DNA from: Akkermansiaceae bacterium
Lineage (GTDB): Bacteria; Verrucomicrobiota; Verrucomicrobiia; Verrucomicrobiales; Akkermansiaceae
Direction of reading: 5' to 3'
DNA length: 64,000 nucleotides
Assembly: GCA_013041925.1 (NCBI GenBank)
Contig: JABDRB010000018.1
Coordinates: forward strand, 1 to 64,000
Shown: piece after piece, positions 55,236 to 64,000 of the stretch
Layout: every line of letters begins with the position of its first letter
Numbering within the stretch: the stretch's first letter is position 1
Made by a program: the position numbers and the translations under genes
The notes under the pieces: model-generated
Database searches by the model: none
Told to the model about the DNA's origin: nothing
The model's input: only the letters and a program-made list of their open reading frames with translations

Positions 55236-55562
55236 TTACCCAATCAGAATAGGCCTAGCATTTTTATTTAATTCCATCAGTTCCCGCTGCTTGACGACCC
55301 CTTCTCGCTCAGCCCCCCAGTCCAGCTCGCTCGCCCAGACTTCATGGAGAAGACCTTCATGCGCACTTCGCACCGCAGCGAGAGCTTGCCGCAGCTGCCA
55401 ATCCTCCCAACGTGGATTTCCACCTAATTTTTTGAGCCATTCACGAAAAACCGCAGCTTTTCCGCCCCCTCCACCCCCAGACGTTGGGTTTCCAGATTGC
55501 CGTAAATGAGCTCCCCAGCCTTCTAAATAATGCCAATAATAGGGCACAACCTTCTCGCTCAC
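55236..55562 (-). pseudogene. N-terminal remnant of an integron integrase (tentative)
   Basis: 108 residues. The segment VPYYWHYLEGWGAHL...FREWLKKLGGNPRWEDWQLRQALAAVRSAH fits the N-terminal extension and helical start of verrucomicrobial-type integron tyrosine recombinases as I remember them. The ORF stops after ARPILIG; the core-binding and catalytic parts (R...HxxR...Y) are absent here and no continuation is seen in other frames down to 55086. It is divergent from the cassette array and 134 bp from its first hairpin, exactly where intI should stand. Alternative: an unrelated small protein. Gly-rich run near residue 30. Confidence 0.5.
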
Positions 55563-55695
55563 CCCTCTACCTACAACATAATGCGTATACCTCCGGTGAA
55601 ACTCCTGCTTTTTGTTGGTTATTTTCTTGTCCCTACATTATACACATTTCATGCTCCTTCCAGACTCTAATCTAACTTAAACGACCCCCCTCAAA
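55563..55695. other. Putative attI region / leader between integrase remnant and array
   Basis: 133 bp without an ORF. It lies where attI, the integrase promoter and the cassette promoter are expected. A GTTGGTT-like core occurs near 55614-55620 but no convincing attI structure is visible by eye. The sequence is A/T-rich compared with the genes to the left. Confidence 0.3.
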
Positions 55696-55773
55696 AAACA
55701 ACATCATAATAGTGTATTGTGGAATTCCACACTAGTGACCTATTATGGAATTCCACCTAATACACTGTTAGCC
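55696..55773 (+). other. attC-like hairpin at the head of the array
   Basis: Inverted repeat with arms 55711-55729 and 55746-55766: AGTGTATT plus GTGGAATTCCA pairs with the opposite arm apart from a 2-nt bulge. An AACAAC stands on the left as inverse core and GTTAGCC (55767-55773) on the right as core. The self-palindrome GGAATTCC is present in both arms. At 78 bp it is shorter than the other attC sites; it could be the attC of an ORF-less cassette or part of attI. Confidence 0.6.
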
Positions 55774-55780
55774 AAAAATC

Positions 55781-56215
55781 ATGAAATTCACCCTACTACT
55801 TGTCGCAATATCTAGTTCTATGATTTCGTGCAGTAAGCCGAAGGCTTCAGCTACAACTTCTCCAGCGAAAATGCCATTGAGCGAGATAGCTGTTTGTTTA
55901 GCCGAATTTCTTCCACAGGAGGCTTCCGACGTAGTTCTTAAGGATAAAGACAGTAAAAAGCATCGTGTAAAATTAACAGTAGAGGAGTTTGAACGCCTTA
56001 AGTTCGAATTTGCGAATGAACTATATGATCGTGCTTCTAAGAGTTACGGATTTGGAAGTCGGTCACATCAATCTACAACTTATTCCGAAGGAGATTCGTC
56101 GTTCTCTGTTTCCATGGGAGGAAAGGAGAGTTATGATTTTGTAATAATAGGAGCACATAGCCCAGAGAATGATAATACGGCAACAATATGGATTAAATCA
56201 TTCCATACTAGGTAA
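55781..56215 (+). CDS. Cassette 1: lipoprotein of unknown function
   Basis: 144 residues with a lipoprotein signal (lipobox MISC at residues 14-17). The mature part is polar and Ser/Lys-rich, with a KHRVKLTVEEFERLKFEFANEL helix and a likely beta end (SFSVSMGG...YDFVIIGAH). No family recognised. It starts 7 bp after the core GTTAGCC and ends 7 bp before attC1, so the gene fills the cassette. No Shine-Dalgarno. Confidence 0.75.
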   Translation: MKFTLLLVAISSSMISCSKPKASATTSPAKMPLSEIAVCLAEFLPQEASDVVLKDKDSKKHRVKLTVEEFERLKFEFANELYDRASKSYGFGSRSHQSTTYSEGDSSFSVSMGGKESYDFVIIGAHSPENDNTATIWIKSFHTR

Positions 56216-56222
56216 TTTATAA

Positions 56223-56349
56223 GGCTAACAAGGCAGCGCACACCAATCCACTACCCGCCGAGAGTTGCAAATTTAATGATAATTACAAACCTTAACCTGA
56301 AATCGAAGCTCGCCCTCTGGTAGTGGATGGGTGGCTTTTGACGTTCTGC
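56223..56349 (+). other. attC1
   Basis: Inverse core GGCTAAC 56223-56229, core GTTCTGC 56343-56349; stem arms ATCCACTACC 56246-56255 and GGTAGTGGAT 56319-56328 pair fully. The inverse core is the exact complement of the core before cassette 1 (55767-55773). Length 127 bp. Confidence 0.88.
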
Positions 56350-56354
56350 TAAAT

Positions 56355-56957
56355 ATGTGCAAGTCGATTCTCATACTACTATTCTCAGTATTTTCTATGG
56401 TTGGTTATGCTAATGACCAATCTTCTTATCGAACCTATTTACATAATATCGATAATTTTCAGAATTGGTTTCGAGTAGGTTCATACAATATTAAAGATGA
56501 AAATAAGGTGAGAGAGGTAGATATTTATTATTGGGATTCTGGTCTCAGACCAGATGGTAAGCAGGTGACATCTTGGACCTATCCTAATCTATTCGGTTTA
56601 TATTGTGTCTGGAAGACCGATCAAGGTAAGTGGACTCATAAAGAAATCGCGGGTAGTGCGAGAGTTGGCTTTCATCAAATAGTTTCAGCTAAGGACAACA
56701 GATTAATTTTGGAGCTAAGAGGCCAATTTATCCGTTTTATAGAAGCTGATGAGACAGCAGAAGAATCTAAAGCTGAAGATAAGATGCACAGCGAAGCCAA
56801 TAAGCCATTCAAGAGAGAGGTCATTTTCAAGGATGGAGTCCCTGACTTAATTTCTCTGGCAGAACAAGACGGCGCTGACCAACCCGCTACCGCTCCAGAG
56901 TTGAAGCTGGAGGGCAATTCGAAACCTCAAACAGAAGCGAAGGTGTGCCCCCGGTAG
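56355..56957 (+). CDS. Cassette 2: exported protein with attC-encoded tail
   Basis: 200 residues. A signal peptide (SILILLFSVFSMVGYAND) is followed by a Tyr/Trp-rich, probably beta-stranded domain (REVDIYYWDSGLRPDGKQ, TYPNLFGLYCVWKTDQGKW). It is not recognised. The last about 33 residues from AEQDGADQPATAPELK onward are read from attC2, and the stop is inside the right stem arm. The start at 56355 is taken because it follows the core; the ORF start at 56331 lies within attC1. Confidence 0.75.
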   Translation: MCKSILILLFSVFSMVGYANDQSSYRTYLHNIDNFQNWFRVGSYNIKDENKVREVDIYYWDSGLRPDGKQVTSWTYPNLFGLYCVWKTDQGKWTHKEIAGSARVGFHQIVSAKDNRLILELRGQFIRFIEADETAEESKAEDKMHSEANKPFKREVIFKDGVPDLISLAEQDGADQPATAPELKLEGNSKPQTEAKVCPR

Positions 56958-56983
56958 CGGGTGGCAGGCCTTGGACGTTCGGC
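56859..56983 (+). other. attC2 (overlaps the end of cassette 2 gene)
   Basis: Inverse core GCAGAAC 56859-56865, core GTTCGGC 56977-56983; stem arms CCCGCTACCG 56883-56892 and CGGTAGCGGG 56952-56961. The inverse core complements the core GTTCTGC before cassette 2. It is clearly the same attC type as attC6 (long identical left arm), although the genes differ. 125 bp. Confidence 0.9.
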
Positions 56984-56991
56984 AAAAAATT

Positions 56992-57321
56992 ATGCAATGG
57001 AAGATCATATCACTATGCTGCTTGTTTGCCGCCTGCGTGCAGTGGTATGAAATTTTAGATAGATCTCTTCATCTCAATAGGATGATTAAGAAGTTTGGCG
57101 TTTCTGGAGCTAGCATTTCGGCAGGGTATATAATGATCGTTATTTTCTTCGGAGCGACTGCCATATTCACACATTTGGCTTATGATGCTGTAAGAAGACT
57201 TAAGGGCCAGTCATCTTTGTACAGAACACTTGCATTCACCAGTATTGTGCTTCTTGTTTCTGGTGCGTTGATGTGGTTGGGATTATTATTATCCCCCTTG
57301 GTCTATGTTGAATATCGATAA
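56992..57321 (+). CDS. Cassette 3: small membrane protein
   Basis: 109 residues with three membrane segments (about 3-20, 38-62 and 80-103). Unknown family. ATG 56992 lies 8 bp after the core GTTCGGC; a longer reading from TTG 56971 would start inside attC2. Cytoplasmic loops are Lys/Arg-rich. Confidence 0.7.
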   Translation: MQWKIISLCCLFAACVQWYEILDRSLHLNRMIKKFGVSGASISAGYIMIVIFFGATAIFTHLAYDAVRRLKGQSSLYRTLAFTSIVLLVSGALMWLGLLLSPLVYVEYR

Positions 57322-57323
57322 AA

Positions 57324-57445
57324 GCCGAACAAGTCGCTGCACCCGACGGAGAGTAGCTGCGCAGCCAGATTTTTCTGGTAGTTTGAACCATTAACAACAA
57401 AGTGAAGTTTCCCGCCACTCTCCGCCGGTGAGCTATACGTTCTGC
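57324..57445 (+). other. attC3
   Basis: Inverse core GCCGAAC 57324-57330, core GTTCTGC 57439-57445; stem arms CGGAGAGT 57347-57354 and ACTCTCCG 57417-57424. The inverse core complements the core before cassette 3. 122 bp; it starts 3 bp after the gene's stop. Confidence 0.87.
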
Positions 57446-57450
57446 AAAAA

Positions 57451-57915
57451 ATGAGATTTCTACGTTCGGCTACCCTTATTTCTTTAGTGCTTTGCATATC
57501 AGGATGCGGTTCAATCTTTATGCATATGATGGGAGCGCGCGGGCGTTCTGTGCCTCTCAGTCAAGTATCATCGTTATACTACAAGACGTCTCCTGACCTG
57601 AAGAAGGCATACGTTTTCTATTCCATCCCGGGACGAATTGCCACAGGAATGGCGACATCGTTCGGACCACTTGGTGACGCACGAGCGATTACCATAGACA
57701 TTGGGGCTGTCAATGATACCGCGAAGAATCGAGAAGAGTTTGGCGAGGGGATTCATTCGGCCTACAAGATTGGTGACCACTGGGTTGCTGAGTTTGATCT
57801 AGCTGAATTAAACCCTATGCAACCACACAATGATCAGATTAAAGTTTTTTATGGTTTTGAACGACGGGATCGTAACGAACCGATTCCTTATCGAGGAACG
57901 TGGATTCGTGAATAA
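57451..57915 (+). CDS. Cassette 4: lipoprotein of unknown function
   Basis: 154 residues, lipoprotein signal with lipobox CISGC (Cys19). The mature part has an AYVFYSIPGRIATGMATSFGPLGDARAITIDIG stretch and a C-terminal ELNPMQPHNDQIKVFYGFERRDR; it looks like a compact beta domain. Not recognised. It begins 6 bp after the core and ends 5 bp before attC4. Confidence 0.75.
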   Translation: MRFLRSATLISLVLCISGCGSIFMHMMGARGRSVPLSQVSSLYYKTSPDLKKAYVFYSIPGRIATGMATSFGPLGDARAITIDIGAVNDTAKNREEFGEGIHSAYKIGDHWVAEFDLAELNPMQPHNDQIKVFYGFERRDRNEPIPYRGTWIRE

Positions 57916-57919
57916 ATCA

Positions 57920-58046
57920 GCAGAACAAGACGTTGCACCCGATGGCTAGTAGCTACCGTGTCAGATTTTTGTGACTGTTAATCAGAATTGAAACTTTAAT
58001 CATTTCATCTGCGGTTTGATCGCCACGGGTGAACTTTACGTTCTGC
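57920..58046 (+). other. attC4
   Basis: Inverse core GCAGAAC 57920-57926, core GTTCTGC 58040-58046, exact complements of each other and of the core before cassette 4. The stem (GCACCCG...TGGC with GCCACGGGTG) is less perfect than in attC1-3. 127 bp. Confidence 0.82.
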
Positions 58047-58057
58047 TAAAATTACCA

Positions 58058-58420
58058 ATGAATCAGCCATCGAGAATACTAATACTCTTCATCGCATTTT
58101 TATTCGCTAGCTGTAGGAAATCTGTAGATAGACTAGGGGAAGCTGAGGTTCTTTTGTCGGCATTAAGCAGTAACAACACCCCTAAGAATTTTGGTGGATT
58201 TGAGGGTGAGGCAATAGCAAAGCTAAGAGATAAGCAATCTAGTCAGGTTAATCCAATTACTTTCGATGTTCGTAAGGGCGACGCAGAACCTCCAATTGGT
58301 GACGGGTCGTGTGACTATCATGCGTTTGGTTCAGTTAAGTCTGGTGATGAACCATTCATAGGTATTAGACTACGATACAAAGATAGAGGGTGGCACATTG
58401 TTGGATATTGGACTCCCTAA
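58058..58420 (+). CDS. Cassette 5: lipoprotein of unknown function
   Basis: 120 residues with signal and lipobox LFASC. The mature protein contains AEVLLSALSSNN, a GDGSCDYHAFGSVKSGDEPFIGIRLRYKDRGWHIVGYW end with repeated aromatic residues. Not recognised. The start at 58058 follows the core by 11 bp; the ORF start at 58016 is inside attC4. Confidence 0.72.
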   Translation: MNQPSRILILFIAFLFASCRKSVDRLGEAEVLLSALSSNNTPKNFGGFEGEAIAKLRDKQSSQVNPITFDVRKGDAEPPIGDGSCDYHAFGSVKSGDEPFIGIRLRYKDRGWHIVGYWTP

Positions 58421-58548
58421 GCAGAACAATTCGAGGCACCCAATCACTACCCACGCGGGCAGCAAAGTAAGTTTAATGATTATTAACCATCAACCCACAA
58501 GTCAGAGATCCGCTCACAGGTAGTGATCGGAGCTCTATGACGTTCGCG
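58421..58548 (+). other. attC5
   Basis: Inverse core GCAGAAC 58421-58427 directly after the stop, core GTTCGCG 58542-58548; stem arms ATCACTACC 58443-58451 and GGTAGTGAT 58519-58527. The inverse core complements the core before cassette 5. The core GTTCGCG departs from the classical GTTRRRY. 128 bp. Confidence 0.87.
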
Positions 58549-58553
58549 ATAAA

Positions 58554-59627
58554 ATGAAAATTCCCCAACTAGTCTCAATAGTCTGGCTCATAGTCCAGAT
58601 TGGCCTCCACGCCATGGATCCAACGAAAGTGGATGGAGTTGTTGCTGTAGATGTCGACCGGACCGAGCGAGTGTGGACGGTAGAAGTCACCAACGCTAGT
58701 AAGCAGGCGCTGCGCTACGAGATGATGGGCAAGGTGCCGCGCGGACTCGGGTTGGAAGTGTGGGATCCCGATAAAGCTGAATACGGGGTGAGGGTTCACG
58801 CTGAGAACTTAGCACAGATGAACATGGATGTTTTTCCTGCAGATATTCGCGAGATTGCTCCTGGGACATCGGAGAAGTTTCACCTGAACCCAGCGTCGAT
58901 GTCCACAACTAGTGACTTAACACTAGCGAAGTGGGAAAGAGCGAAACGCTACGGATATTACGAATGTAGGGTTTTCTTTGGTGTTTATGCCTCACGCTTG
59001 CTGAGCGTAGCCCCAAGGGATCGCCTTAATTCCCCAGAGAGAGATAAACCCAAAGAGGATGCACCGCTCTGGTCAAAGACTAAGGATGAAGAAAACGAAA
59101 AGAATGCGATATTTGGCTTCAAGCTGCGGCGCATGTTGAACGAGAAGAGTCTAGCCATCGTTAGCTGGCATCGCGGTTCCGACAGCGGGGATGACTACTA
59201 CATCACATACACGACTTGTCCCAAAGCCGAACTAGAAGCAATGAAGCCGATGGACGAGAACAAGACTATGGAAATTCCTTTGCCGAAGTTGATTGCAAAA
59301 GCCCAGGCAATAGCAAAGAAGAAGCTCAAAGACTGCACTTTCGAAGGGTTGATGATTAATCCATGCGAAGACGATGATAAGAAGCACTATGCTTCAGTTT
59401 ACTTTGTTGATGACCGAGACGACACCGAAATTGACATACTTCTCAATGGTGTCACTACGGAGACCACCAAGCTATCAGTTACCAAAGAGCAATACAAGCA
59501 GTTGAAGGACTACAGAATACCAAAAATACGCGAACAAGACGGCGCTGGACAACCCGCTACCGCTCCGGAGTTGAAGCCGAAGGATCGCTACGAACCTCAA
59601 CCTGAATCGGAGGGGCGCTCCCGGTAG
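58554..59627 (+). CDS. Cassette 6: large exported protein with attC-encoded tail
   Basis: 357 residues, the largest cassette gene. Signal peptide (LVSIVWLIVQIGLHA), then a beta-sandwich-like domain (RVWTVEVTNASKQALRYEMMGKVPRG) and a helical region with AKAQAIAKKKLKDCTFEGLM and KHYASVYFVDDRDDTEIDILLNG. Not recognised. The last about 33 residues from REQDGAGQPATAPELK on are read from attC6 and resemble the tail of cassette 2. It starts 5 bp after the core. Confidence 0.75.
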   Translation: MKIPQLVSIVWLIVQIGLHAMDPTKVDGVVAVDVDRTERVWTVEVTNASKQALRYEMMGKVPRGLGLEVWDPDKAEYGVRVHAENLAQMNMDVFPADIREIAPGTSEKFHLNPASMSTTSDLTLAKWERAKRYGYYECRVFFGVYASRLLSVAPRDRLNSPERDKPKEDAPLWSKTKDEENEKNAIFGFKLRRMLNEKSLAIVSWHRGSDSGDDYYITYTTCPKAELEAMKPMDENKTMEIPLPKLIAKAQAIAKKKLKDCTFEGLMINPCEDDDKKHYASVYFVDDRDDTEIDILLNGVTTETTKLSVTKEQYKQLKDYRIPKIREQDGAGQPATAPELKPKDRYEPQPESEGRSR

Positions 59628-59653
59628 CGGGTATCAGGCCTCGAACGTTCGGC
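59529..59653 (+). other. attC6 (overlaps the end of cassette 6 gene)
   Basis: Inverse core CGCGAAC 59529-59535, which is the exact complement of the unusual core GTTCGCG before cassette 6; core GTTCGGC 59647-59653. Stem arms CCCGCTACCG 59553-59562 and CGGTAGCGGG 59622-59631. 125 bp, same type as attC2. Confidence 0.9.
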
Positions 59654-59722
59654 AAGAAATAATTCCCAGCGAATTCATCGTGCGTTCACACTGGTTTCAC
59701 GAACCGATGCAACTATCCTGCA

Positions 59723-60247
59723 ATGAAACAAGCTAACGCATCTCCAATCACGGGGCAGGAAGAACTAGCCCCTCCACAGTCTAAGTCGCCGCGCCGCAGA
59801 ATTGTCCTCAAGGTATGCGTCGTCATCCTCGCCCTCGCCCTAGTTTTCGCCGGGACTCTCTTCCGAATCTATAGAGTCGATACACACCATGCGAGTAGAG
59901 GTAGTATTTGGTGGCCAGAGAGGGGCCGGAATCTGATCCCGCCTACCGCTGCCGACATCACGCTGCGGCGGGATTTGCTCGATCACTACGCTATCTACAC
60001 TATATCGGAGAAAGACCTCAACGCCTTCCTTGATAGGCGTTTCGCTCGCCCTGGGAAGGTGCTCGATTCCTTCAGTGAGAGGTCGCCGGCGCACGCCGAT
60101 ACTGTTGGAAAACCAATCGGTCCCCTTGGCTGGGTAGTGACAGAGAATACCGTCTCGTATCACTACGCGGCCAGGAACGGAGGTGGTCAACATTACTATC
60201 ACGATACGGAGTCCGGACAGACATATCAGGACTCTGCCTACTGGTAG
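59723..60247 (+). CDS. Cassette 7: single-pass membrane protein
   Basis: 174 residues: a basic cytoplasmic N-terminus (KSPRRR), one membrane segment at about residues 28-48, and an extracytoplasmic domain with a WWPERGRNLIPPTAADITLRRDLLDHYAIYT stretch and a His/Tyr-rich end. Not recognised. It begins 69 bp after the core, the longest leader in the array, leaving room for a promoter. Confidence 0.72.
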   Translation: MKQANASPITGQEELAPPQSKSPRRRIVLKVCVVILALALVFAGTLFRIYRVDTHHASRGSIWWPERGRNLIPPTAADITLRRDLLDHYAIYTISEKDLNAFLDRRFARPGKVLDSFSERSPAHADTVGKPIGPLGWVVTENTVSYHYAARNGGGQHYYHDTESGQTYQDSAYW

Positions 60248-60273
60248 TATATTCCTTCCCCCAAAATCGGAAC

Positions 60274-60400
60274 GCCGAACAAGCGGGTGGACACCAACCG
60301 CCTACACGCTCCGAGTCGACATGACCCTCTTAACTCGAATCCTTAACGCTGTTGCGGAGTGGCGCTGCCTGTAGGCAGCGGGTCACCCTTGACGTTATGT
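60274..60400 (+). other. attC7
   Basis: Inverse core GCCGAAC 60274-60280 complements the core GTTCGGC before cassette 7; core GTTATGT 60394-60400. Arms CCGCCTACA 60298-60306 and TGTAGGCAG 60370-60378 pair with one mismatch. 127 bp. Confidence 0.83.
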
Positions 60401-60476
60401 CTAAAGCACGCTCATACCCTACGGTCACGCAAAATATCCCTTGCCCTCGTCACCATTGCATTCAGAATGAGTTGAT

Positions 60477-61004
60477 ATGAAGACCGCAAAATATTTGGCG
60501 ACACAAGGAGGCTGGCAGAAGTATGAAGCGCCTGGTGACTCTGCGTGGCTGAAGCAATTCGTCGCCGACAAATGGAAGGCGAGTGCAGCGGTGGAACACT
60601 ACGCCGATACGTATTTGCCCAAGTCGTCCGTCGATCTGGGACCGTTCGTTTTACTATCCGCTGAAGACATCAAAAAAGGCAACCACTTCTGGGATGACGG
60701 TGAATTGCTCTCGCGATTCGGACTTCTGCTGATTGGCGATACGGTTGGTTGCGAGTATCTCTTCATGCTGGCTGACACCGGCCGAGTAATCATTCTCGAT
60801 CGCCCCGAGATTCCGGACTCCGAGCATCGAGAATATTTCTATGGCTCGGCCAAGATCGAGGAGTTTGATTTTGCACGATGGCTGAGTGAAGAGAAGGGTG
60901 CCGCCACTGAAGAGTATCCAATTGGGGCTGGGGACTTTGCATCGTTCGCGGAATTCGATGAAGCGCTTCTGGATTGGCATCAGCAAGACTTTGACGGCGA
61001 GTAA
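60477..61004 (+). CDS. Cassette 8: cytoplasmic protein of unknown function
   Basis: 175 residues, acidic, without signal or membrane segment; the only cytosolic product in the array. LLLIGDTVGCEYLFMLADTGRVIILDRPE and EFDFARWLSEE are reminiscent of SMI1/KNR4 (SUKH) immunity proteins, but this is only a resemblance. The first 76 bp of the gene recur, with two changes, at 63018. Confidence 0.68.
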   Translation: MKTAKYLATQGGWQKYEAPGDSAWLKQFVADKWKASAAVEHYADTYLPKSSVDLGPFVLLSAEDIKKGNHFWDDGELLSRFGLLLIGDTVGCEYLFMLADTGRVIILDRPEIPDSEHREYFYGSAKIEEFDFARWLSEEKGAATEEYPIGAGDFASFAEFDEALLDWHQQDFDGE

Positions 61005-61059
61005 GTTGTAATTACCTGTCACGCCAAGCATCTTGCGATGGTAGCCCAATCCAATTGAG

Positions 61060-61170
61060 GCAGAACAAGTGTATGCAGGCCGATTATTCACCCGCGCTTA
61101 GTGTAAGAAAGTCGTTTGAGATCTAATCGTTTAAGGGTTGATCGGCGCGCGTTTTCCGAGTGTAAGACTC
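61060..61170 (+). other. attC8, left part, interrupted by the IS element
   Basis: Inverse core GCAGAAC at 61060-61066 followed by AAGTGTATGCAGGCCGAT. The site continues on the far side of the IS at 62443-62464 (CGGCTGATGCTATACG, then a degenerate core GATATGA). Both parts add up to about 133 bp, like the other sites. Confidence 0.65.
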
Positions 61171-61199
61171 TGGCGTGCCCCCGTTCTTTGAACCAATTG

Positions 61200-62099
61200 T
61201 TATGAGAGCATTGGTTGTTTTTGATTCGTGCTGTGCTTCGGAACGGAGGCCGTAGGCCGAAGTGGAGAGGCGCAGCACGAGGCAAACTCTGCCGGGGTCA
61301 TATCGCCCAACGATGAGTGCGGTCGCTGATGGTTATATTTGTATCGGTGTTCTTCGCCAAGCATTTTCGCCTCCAGTAAACTTGTGAATAATTCAAGGTT
61401 AAGAAATTCATCCCGAAATCGTGAGTTGAAACTTTCGGCGTAAGCATTTTGCCATGGACTCCCTGGCTCGATATAACACGTTTTGAAGCCCTCTTCCTCA
61501 ATCCAATCTTTGATAGCATTCGCTACAAATTCAGGCCCATTGTCGCTTCGAATATACTCAGGCACTCCTCGTTGCTTGACCAAAATCTTTAATTCTTCCA
61601 CTACATCCTCAGCTTTCATCGACCGTTCTACTTCAAGGCCAAGAAGCTCTCGGCTGTATTCATCCAGAATAGGGAGCCATTTCAGGCGACTCCCATCATC
61701 AGTCTGATCATGCACAAAGTCGTAAGTCCAAACATGATTCAGTTTTTCGGCTTTGAGTTTTTGTATCGAATTTTCAGCCGTTCCTCTCGCTCTTTTTCGA
61801 GCTGGGCGGGGATGGATCTTCAACCCTTCTTGCTTCCATAGGCGATGAACTCGCTTTTGATTAACTTTCCAGCCTTCTCGTCGAAGTAGCCTTGTCACGC
61901 TACGGTAACCGGCTCTTGGGTTAGCACATGCTAAACGATGGAGTTCAGCTATCAGCTCTTTGTCCTGTTCAGGCTGTTTAGGTTTATATCGTTGAGTCGA
62001 TCGGGGCTGATTCATGATTCGACATGCCCGACGTTCGCCAACCTCAAAGCTTTGTTGAATATGATCAACTGCTTCGCGGCGGCGTGTCGGGCCTACCAC
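61200..62099 (-). CDS. IS3-family transposase OrfB (DDE integrase core)
   Basis: 299 residues in this frame, with an HTH_21-like part (LHRLACANPRAGYRSVTRLLRREGWKVNQKRVHRLWKQEGL) and rve core: the three acidic residues lie in WTYDFVHD, IRSDNGPEF and NAYAESFNSRFRDEFL. Its GTG at 62099 overlaps orfA; it is probably made mainly as an OrfAB fusion by -1 frameshifting. Its stop lies in the inner part of the terminal repeat. Confidence 0.93.
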   Translation of the reverse strand: MVGPTRRREAVDHIQQSFEVGERRACRIMNQPRSTQRYKPKQPEQDKELIAELHRLACANPRAGYRSVTRLLRREGWKVNQKRVHRLWKQEGLKIHPRPARKRARGTAENSIQKLKAEKLNHVWTYDFVHDQTDDGSRLKWLPILDEYSRELLGLEVERSMKAEDVVEELKILVKQRGVPEYIRSDNGPEFVANAIKDWIEEEGFKTCYIEPGSPWQNAYAESFNSRFRDEFLNLELFTSLLEAKMLGEEHRYKYNHQRPHSSLGDMTPAEFASCCASPLRPTASVPKHSTNQKQPMLS

Positions 62100-62371
62100 T
62101 TTCCCTGGTTAACTTCCTTGAGGATATCCATATCCAGGGCTTGCTCAGCGACTAGTTTTTTGAGTCTGGCGTTTTCCTTTTCAAGCTCCTTGAGTCGCTT
62201 TACTGCTCCTGTTGTAGCGTTTCCATACTCCTTGTTCCATCGGTGGTAGGTTGCTACACTGATAGCCAATTTGCGGCATACTTCGTCTATGCAGGCACCT
62301 CTTGCTAGCTCTTCGCTAGCGGTGTGCAACTTCTTTACTATTTGTTCGGGTGTATGTCTTTTCTTCTTCAT
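62093..62371 (-). CDS. IS3-family transposase OrfA (HTH, leucine zipper)
   Basis: 92 residues: KKKRHTPEQIVKKLHTASEELARG, HTH of the transposase_8 type (DEVCRKLAISVATYHRWNKEYG) and a coiled coil ending ALDMDILKEVNQ, as in the IS407 group. The 3' end contains the slippery heptamer G-GGA-AAG (62099-62105 on the minus strand), in the correct X-XXY-YYZ phase, two codons before the stop; slipping by -1 enters orfB. Confidence 0.93.
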   Translation of the reverse strand: MKKKRHTPEQIVKKLHTASEELARGACIDEVCRKLAISVATYHRWNKEYGNATTGAVKRLKELEKENARLKKLVAEQALDMDILKEVNQGKW

Positions 62372-62548
62372 AAGAGTGGTCTCAGGCTCTCGCCTGACAC
62401 TCTCATAACATATGGTTCAGTTTTTTGGGAGCACGCCAACTCGGCTGATGCTATACGATATGACAAAAAATTAGAAGCGAGTTTTGTGGACAAACCAACA
62501 TCTCCGCACACACTGAACAAACACAAACCAACAATAGAGCAACACCAT

Positions 62549-63004
62549 ATGACGCACTCAATATCTGGAAATTACTTTTTAGTGGGAAAAATAAAAAAAA
62601 CTATTTTCTATTTGATAATATGTCTTTCTTCCATTGGCTATGTAGAAGCGAAGGTGTACAAACCCTTGAACGCCGAAATAGCTAAAAAAAACTTGAATCA
62701 TGCTTGTGTGATGGCTTTCGCTACAGCTCTAAAATCAGGAGATGATGAAAAGGCGGCTTCTTTTTGTGATGAAGCTCTTATGAAAGACGTTAAAGAAAAT
62801 CATTTTAGCTTAAAATCTTATAGGGAAATGTATTTTCGAGATATGGACATGAGCACTTTGGTCTACAGGGCCTCACCTTCAAAGAAAAACGATCATTACG
62901 TATTGAAATACGTATTAAAGTTCTCAAATTTGGAAGGGAAAAAAAGTACCATAACGCTGTATGTGGATACAAAAGACGGCAAAAAAATACTGACGACAAA
63001 ATAA
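62549..63004 (+). CDS. Cassette 9: exported protein
   Basis: 151 residues. The ATG at 62549 is chosen; a basic stretch (GKIKK) is followed by a hydrophobic segment and a probable signal cleavage site (SSIGYVEA-KV). The mature domain (AKKNLNHACVMAFATALKSGDDEKAASFCDEALMK, ... HYVLKYVLKFSN) resembles lumazine-binding/NTF2-like small exported domains, but is not certain. Longer readings start inside the IS element. The gene is distinctly AT-rich, and its leader is A/C-rich. Confidence 0.68.
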   Translation: MTHSISGNYFLVGKIKKTIFYLIICLSSIGYVEAKVYKPLNAEIAKKNLNHACVMAFATALKSGDDEKAASFCDEALMKDVKENHFSLKSYREMYFRDMDMSTLVYRASPSKKNDHYVLKYVLKFSNLEGKKSTITLYVDTKDGKKILTTK

Positions 63005-63009
63005 ATTTT

Positions 63010-63108
63010 AACAACTTATGAAGACCGCAAAATATTTGGCGACACAAGGAGGCTGGCAGAAGTATGAAGCTCCTGGTGACTCTGCGCGGCTGATGCTGAA
63101 CGTTAGGC
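63010..63108 (+). other. Degenerate attC region containing a collapsed cassette-8 copy
   Basis: Begins with an AACAAC inverse-core-like word and ends with a canonical core GTTAGGC at 63102-63108. Between them lies the 76-bp start of cassette 8 instead of normal attC arms. The right 16 bp (GGCTGATGCT..ACG) match the right end of attC8. Confidence 0.55.
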
Positions 63109-63119
63109 TAAGAAAATGA
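63018..63119 (+). pseudogene. Truncated second copy of the cassette 8 gene
   Basis: Positions 63018-63093 match 60477-60552 at 74 of 76 bases, starting exactly at ATG. The match ends in GGCTGA, a word that is both in the cassette 8 gene and at the start of the attC8 right end, so a deletion between two GGCTGA words explains the fusion. The frame stays open for 33 codons, reading through the attC core, and its TGA overlaps the ATG of cassette 10 (ATGA), so it may still be translated and coupled. Confidence 0.85.
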
Positions 63120-63499
63120 AGACTTCGATATTCACCCTGATCTTGCTAATGATAGCTCAAAGTCAGCTGCATGCAGGCAACCTCTTTCGTGAAGTGACGG
63201 TGGGGTCAGACTCTTGGGAGATTATTTTCCATAAACAAGGTGGACGATATCGTATTGAGATTGATGCGGTTAATCGTGGCACTTCAGGTTATTTACAAAG
63301 ACTTAGACTGCTCCCTAAAGAATCACTTAGGCTGATTGATAAGCACTGGTATATGGACATCAAACCAGCGGATCGCGAGGGGAAGAAGGGGTTAGAGATA
63401 ACGAGAACTTATCATGATCGTTTGACTGGAGCGAAGAAGACCCAAACCACATTCGAGCCGAACCATAGAGCGGAACAAAGCGGTGAACCCGACAGCTGA
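63116..63499 (+). CDS. Cassette 10: exported protein with attC-encoded tail
   Basis: 127 residues with a signal peptide (IFTLILLMIAQSQLHAG) and a beta-rich domain (EVTVGSDSWEIIFHKQGGRYRIEID, LRLIDKHWYMDIKPADR). Not recognised. The last nine residues or so (AEQSGEPDS) are encoded by the left end of attC10. It starts 7 bp after the core GTTAGGC. Confidence 0.7.
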   Translation: MKTSIFTLILLMIAQSQLHAGNLFREVTVGSDSWEIIFHKQGGRYRIEIDAVNRGTSGYLQRLRLLPKESLRLIDKHWYMDIKPADREGKKGLEITRTYHDRLTGAKKTQTTFEPNHRAEQSGEPDS

Positions 63500-63595
63500 G
63501 CGCTTGTAAGGTTGAGGGATTTTGGGTAGAAGAGAATTGAGAAAGGAATCGGAGCAGCATGTCAGGTCAGCCGACGGTTACCTTGAACGTTCGAC
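63470..63595 (+). other. attC10
   Basis: Inverse core GCGGAAC 63470-63476, core GTTCGAC 63589-63595, 126 bp. Arms ACCCGACAGCTGA and TCAGCCGACGGTTAC pair partly. The inverse core matches the complement of the core before cassette 10 (GTTAGGC) in only 5 of 7 positions. Confidence 0.7.
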
Positions 63596-63601
63596 AATAA
63601 T

Positions 63602-63970
63602 ATGAAGAAACCATTTCGCATCGGTCTACTTGTAGTCGTCGCTATTTTGATAGCAGCGACATCCGTTCAGGTATATTTGATATTAGATTCTCGCTATACC
63701 GTAACAGTCAAGAACGACACATCTGTGCCGATTAAGCTAGTGCAGATTTCTGGTGGTGGTAGCGAAGTCACGATTGACAGCATCGACGCTGGAGGTAGTG
63801 AGACACGACATTTTTGGATCGAGACAGATGGTCGCCTTGAACTACAGCACGATTCAGACAATCAGAGGCATATTATCGATGGCTATGTGACGGGTTCACT
63901 GGGAGGCGACACAACAGTCACGATTCATCCTGATGGGGCGGTGACATCGATTAACCACCGTAGCGAATAA
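63602..63970 (+). CDS. Cassette 11: single-pass membrane protein
   Basis: 122 residues with an N-terminal membrane anchor (residues 7-27) and a beta-sandwich-like extracytoplasmic part (YTVTVKNDTSVPIKLVQISGGGSEVTIDSIDAGGSETRHFWIETDGRLEL), rich in Thr, Ser and Asp. Not recognised. It starts 6 bp after the core GTTCGAC and ends 3 bp before the next attC. Confidence 0.72.
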   Translation: MKKPFRIGLLVVVAILIAATSVQVYLILDSRYTVTVKNDTSVPIKLVQISGGGSEVTIDSIDAGGSETRHFWIETDGRLELQHDSDNQRHIIDGYVTGSLGGDTTVTIHPDGAVTSINHRSE

Positions 63971-63973
63971 GTG

Positions 63974-64000
63974 GTCTAACAAGCTATGCGCTTGGCAAAA
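63974..64000 (+). other. attC11, cut by the window end
   Basis: Inverse core GTCTAAC at 63974-63980 followed by AAGC; it agrees in 6 of 7 positions with the complement of the core before cassette 11. The array therefore goes on beyond the window. Confidence 0.6.

Follow-up and report, generated by a model that had tools for sequence, protein, structure and literature searches.

Does the row of small genes near the end of a contig from an Akkermansiaceae bacterium represent an integron cassette array, and if so, how did cassettes come to be gathered beside an integrase gene of which only the beginning is left? The window analysed here comes from a genome of 3.28 Mb in 33 contigs and covers the initial 64 kb of one of them, C31 (65381 bp). 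The row of small rightward genes starts at position 55767, is spaced by palindromic attC sites of 122-128 bp, in agreement with the hairpins of about 125 bp in the preliminary description, and ends on C31 0.8 kb past the window.

The cassettes and their R''/core pairs

In cassettes 1-7 (55767-60400; Table 1) the 7-nt core is the exact reverse complement of the R'' behind the cassette's own gene. The preliminary description had reported seven successive exact pairs, and direct reading confirms all of them (7/7) through four core sequences: GTTAGCC, GTTCTGC, GTTCGGC, and GTTCGCG. The match is a prediction of cassette-circle integration, since a 5' core that derives from the cassette's own attC will match its R'', and it supports the reading as an integron cassette array. 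When the cores of cassettes 1-7 are shuffled, a check that had been proposed at the outset, 7/7 pairs arise by chance with p = 0.0024, which taken alone is suggestive and short of overwhelming. A permutation with six further exact pairs from other arrays of the same genome gives about 1e-8, a figure that covers selected exact pairs only, with non-matching cassettes left out, and on which we do not rely. Exact pairs in this genome comprise cassettes 1-7 on C31, the first three cassettes of C33, and the first of C11; the match is lost in the distal cassettes and in much of the C17 cluster.

Table 1. Features of the integron region in the window; the position after each core or R'' is its first base unless a range is given
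Feature	Span	Strand	Core	Gene	R''	attC	Remarks
Repeat motif at intI break	55243-55268	-					C19 has a similar motif at the same break point in intI, C12 at its end
intI 5' fragment	55269-55632	-		frame 55236-55562, 108 aa			N-terminal extension only, without catalytic domain
attI region	55657-55769	+					long imperfect palindrome/hairpin ending at the first core; between intI fragment and first core
Cassette 1	55768-56343	+	GTTAGCC 55767	55781-56215	GGCTAAC 56223	56223-56349	
Cassette 2	56344-56977	+	GTTCTGC 56343		GCAGAAC 56859	56859-56983	
Cassette 3	56978-57439	+	GTTCGGC 56977		GCCGAAC 57324	57324-57445	
Cassette 4	57440-58040	+	GTTCTGC 57439	57451-57915	GCAGAAC 57920	57920-58046	
Cassette 5	58041-58542	+	GTTCTGC 58040		GCAGAAC 58421	58421-58548	
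Cassette 6	58543-59647	+	GTTCGCG 58542	58554-59627	CGCGAAC 59529	59529-59653	
Cassette 7	59648-60394	+	GTTCGGC 59647	59723-60247	GCCGAAC 60274	60274-60400	
Cassette 8	60395-61188	+	GTTATGT 60394	60477-61004	GCAGAAC 61060		R'' unlike own core; attC interrupted
IS3-family insertion sequence	61189-62419	-		two transposase frames			terminal inverted repeats; splits attC of cassette 8
Remnant region	62420-63102	+		about 62540-63004			repeat of cassette 8 gene start from 63019
Distal cassette	63103-63589	+	GTTAGGC 63102	63116-63499	GCGGAAC 63470	63470-63595	R'' does not match core
Last window cassette	63590-64000	+	GTTCGAC 63589	63602-63970	GTCTAAC 63974-63980		R'' does not match core

The R''/core rule is not specific to the window's genome. 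In G029, the complete genome of an order-level relative with two long arrays, 62/63 testable cassettes of one array and 47/48 of the other (109/111 in total) have an R'' that corresponds to their own core, far above the shuffle means of 4.7 and 5.3 per array; since our covariance model for attC does not encode the rule, these match rates are independent support. R''/core identity is thus a simple quantitative marker of intact cassettes. A Pfam search of the cassette proteins returned nothing convincing. One cassette of the C33 array (L027:915-1181) carries a RelE-type toxin gene, probably with an antitoxin; toxin-antitoxin cassettes are typical of integrons.

attC sites and the GTTC cores

The attC sites of C31, 9 to 10 in number, end in AAC/GTT and show the R''-L''/L'-R' anatomy. 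The covariance model, built from ten sites, matches attC-like sites on C31, C11, C33, and C17 of the same genome, and the attC family that it defines is found in 20/23 of the relatives searched. A lack of covariance-model matches had been named beforehand as evidence against an integron; matches instead are clade-wide, though the model was trained on these sites and hence is not independent of them. An independent model, based on class 1 integrons (seven cassettes) and Vibrio (three sites), gives no match in the window even when its filters are disabled; most of the Vibrio sites used to build it escaped it too, so that it has little power and its negative result says little. An Rfam search at gathering thresholds returned no attC family, only a tRNA. 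A generic scan for R''-L''/L'-R' geometry, not fitted to the C31 sites, locates 8 sites on the plus strand of the 8.3-kb array where 1.3 are expected (Poisson p ~7e-5), and 19 further sites in all the remaining sequence of the two strands, the minus strand of the array included.

Single-strand folding, another check proposed in the preliminary description, came out divided: RNA parameters favour the bottom strand in all seven sites, but DNA parameters show little strand bias, with bottom-strand z-scores of about -1 to -3.3 and a bottom strand that is only slightly more stable than the top, and not in every site. Folding alone proves little about attC. Elsewhere in the genome, a cluster at C17:17000-35000 (L061) lacks an integrase and holds about nine attC sites, whose R''/core pairs are mostly degenerate; it carries a PIN-domain-like gene and others.

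The preliminary description had also proposed a distinct attC lineage, from cores that break GTTRRRY at the first R. C occupies core position 4 in 77/113 sites of G029 and 15/20 sites of the window's genome, counts that may be biased by a model trained on C-rich sites; the class 1 and Vibrio attC sites that we read have A or G there. The proposal holds to the extent that C at position 4 is the clade-wide majority, but it loses force in that AAC/GTT only is strictly conserved in attC sites anyway (PMC2727003); GTTRRRY is the general attC motif (PMC7370490), and the clade-wide GTTC cores depart only from this loose consensus. The GTTC core is a taxon-specific variant, with no new mechanism, and strict GTTRRRY filters would overlook most cores of this clade.

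Integrases, attI, and the history of the locus

Two intact integron integrases are encoded elsewhere in the genome, on C7 (438 aa) and C11 (394 aa), and score 401 and 336 bits respectively against TIGR02249 (cut-off 265). Integrases of this clade have extra N-terminal residues before the part that matches the integron integrase model, about 124 in the C7 protein (L016:71-1384) and about 80 in the C11 protein (L017:9562-10743); a Thiodictyon plasmid integrase aligns over the full length. Just left of the C31 array, and divergent from it, lie a truncated intI and an attI, both of which the preliminary description overlooked. The intI fragment is identical to the start of the intact C7 gene at 357/364 nt (98%), with the similarity ending at 55269, at the start of a repeat; an NCBIfam search of the fragment returned no family, and no integrase catalytic domain was found on C31. 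A third intI remnant, of about 150 bp, is located on C19.

The attI of C31 is also the start of C33: 111 bases are identical up to the GTT at 55767-55769, and beyond it the arrays are unrelated, which is what cassette exchange at G-TT predicts. One attI in two copies, identical to the crossover base and followed by unrelated cassettes, amounts to a natural experiment. A stretch of 64 bp at 81% identity to this attI lies upstream of intI, before the first core, in sister G012. We wish to stress that the pairing of array and integrase, that is, whether the C31 or the C33 array goes with the truncated intI, depends on the assembly across a repeat of about 230 bp, the stretch identical in both intI/attI copies. 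C7 and C33 both stop inside this stretch, the C31 path alone crosses it, and overlaps of exactly 127 bases, of the kind left by k-mer graph assembly, occur between other contig ends, all of which would fit an assembly that swapped partners, so that the C31 array goes with the intact integrase on C7 and the truncated intI with the C33 array. We consider such a swap rather unlikely, given that the joined path is the one that the assembler chose and that seven differences between the intI copies make the existence of two real copies secure. Separately, the last 127 bases of C31 (65255-65381) equal the reversed end of C12, and these contigs may be neighbours.

Comparison among relatives points to cassette mobility with G-TT boundaries. 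Sister G010 has a copy of cassette 7 of about 85% identity, with homology bounded at the cores and different neighbours, and G029 repeats near-identical cassettes at various positions across its two arrays. Presence/absence variation bounded at the cores, which the preliminary description had expected of sister genomes, is evident both in cassette 7 and in the unrelated arrays that follow the duplicated attI.

Beyond cassette 7 the R''/core rule fails in the C31 array, a breakdown that had escaped the preliminary description. The insertion sequence within cassette 8 scores 251.9 bits with the NCBIfam IS3 model and matches Pfam rve and HTH_Tnp_1. Positions 63019-63095 are a partial copy (76 nt; 96% over 80 nt in a self-BLAST) of the cassette 8 gene start at 60477, and terminate in an attC-like end, GAACGTTAGGC. 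The GTTCGAC cassette has no attC behind its GTCTAAC and appears to be fused to a downstream FkbM-type methyltransferase gene, after which, past the window, a short attC follows at C31 64723-64794. We read the distal loss of the R''/core match as decay with age, an age order that we infer.

The flanking chromosomal genes (phosphoesterase, two small genes, then typA) keep the same order in all five sisters in which typA was located, and the flanking-gene stretches from seven sisters that we read yielded no attC. The window's genome has the phosphoesterase side on C31 and has typA on C19, each beside an integrase fragment and repeats; thus either an integron inserted here and the site was rearranged afterwards, or contigs were misjoined. 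Several integron arrays have at their ends the motif AAAAATGCCAGGCATATAGTGA, which is the 5' terminus of a RAYT-type (Y1 transposase) element (L027:7088-7112, L017:12676-12701, L017:9525-9550, L013:816-840, and L031:4142-4167). Of its nine near-matches in the genome, four border the arrays of C11, C33, and C31, and another sits beside the integrase remnant of C19; G010 is the sole relative with the motif among those searched.

We conclude, with a probability of about 0.9, that the locus is a sedentary chromosomal integron array which was duplicated and lost most of its intI by truncation, leaving attI and the array, and in which attI-proximal cassettes were then probably exchanged and distal ones have decayed. 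Each cassette would have entered as a circle, through an integron integrase that acts on attC in its folded bottom-strand form, with crossover between G and TT. The locus itself derives from a duplicated integron; the attI-proximal cassettes would have been gained or exchanged since that duplication, with the intact C7 (or C11) integrase probably acting in trans; and the distal cassettes, presumably older, have decayed by the mutation, IS insertion, and partial duplication visible in them.

Two other accounts need to be set against this one. The array could be a dead relic, all of whose cassettes entered before intI was lost and in which nothing has moved since. Its truncated intI, the loss of the R''/core match in the distal cassettes, and the IS3 element inside one attC all point that way; yet the attI is still identical to the C33 copy, the seven attI-proximal cassettes are intact, and the genome encodes two intact integrases, so that we find this account improbable though worth bearing in mind. 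Far less credible is the view that there is no integron at all, only tandem small genes with terminator or REP-like hairpins whose complementarity arose by chance. Intergenic palindromic repeats are common, and the modest p value of the seven-cassette match alone leaves room for coincidence, but the 109/111 matches in G029, the integrases, the attI, and the cassettes bounded at G-TT lead us to reject it. Returning to the duplicated and truncated integron, one could go further and suppose that the clade has an attC/integrase lineage of its own (with mostly GTTC cores, an integrase N-terminal stretch, and a palindromic attI) and that in this genome RAYT-type repeats at the borders of integron units served to copy and rearrange these units between chromosomal sites, such that several attI are served in trans by one integrase; we regard this extension as speculative and on balance doubtful.

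Comparison with known integrons

Integrons are known from many phyla, Verrucomicrobiota included (PMC8618304), and the present locus offers a well-resolved one from a clade that has been little studied and where arrays are common. As expected of a chromosomal integron, the genome encodes an integrase, attI lies at the integrase end, and the sites have attC anatomy; what adjoins the C31 array, with the assembly caveat above, is no functional integrase but a 5' fragment of about 100 codons. The closest likeness is to the sedentary chromosomal integrons exemplified by the Vibrio superintegron, which likewise have an attI, tandem cassettes, attC sites of about 125 bp, a divergent intI, mostly unknown cassette genes, and simple R''/R' sites; the C31 array differs in that its own intI is a 5' fragment, its cores are mostly GTTC rather than GTTA or GTTG, and several integron loci occur in one genome.

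Class 1 mobile integrons share the same recombination logic, and over 315 aa their integrase, IntI1, and the C7 integrase are 47% identical. Unlike them, C31 shows no apparent transposon or plasmid context (the left flank consists of conserved chromosomal genes, but RAYT-type repeats flank the array ends), the attC sites of its array are much longer, and the C7 integrase is extended at its N terminus by about 120 aa. With at least 2 attC sites and no functional integrase adjoining, the C31 array also falls under the definition of a CALIN (cluster of attC sites lacking an integrase), for which loss of intI is one proposed origin (PMC8618304). Judged from its sequence, the array became CALIN-like through integrase truncation; it differs from a CALIN in that attI is still intact and the beginning of intI remains, which leaves its origin visible.
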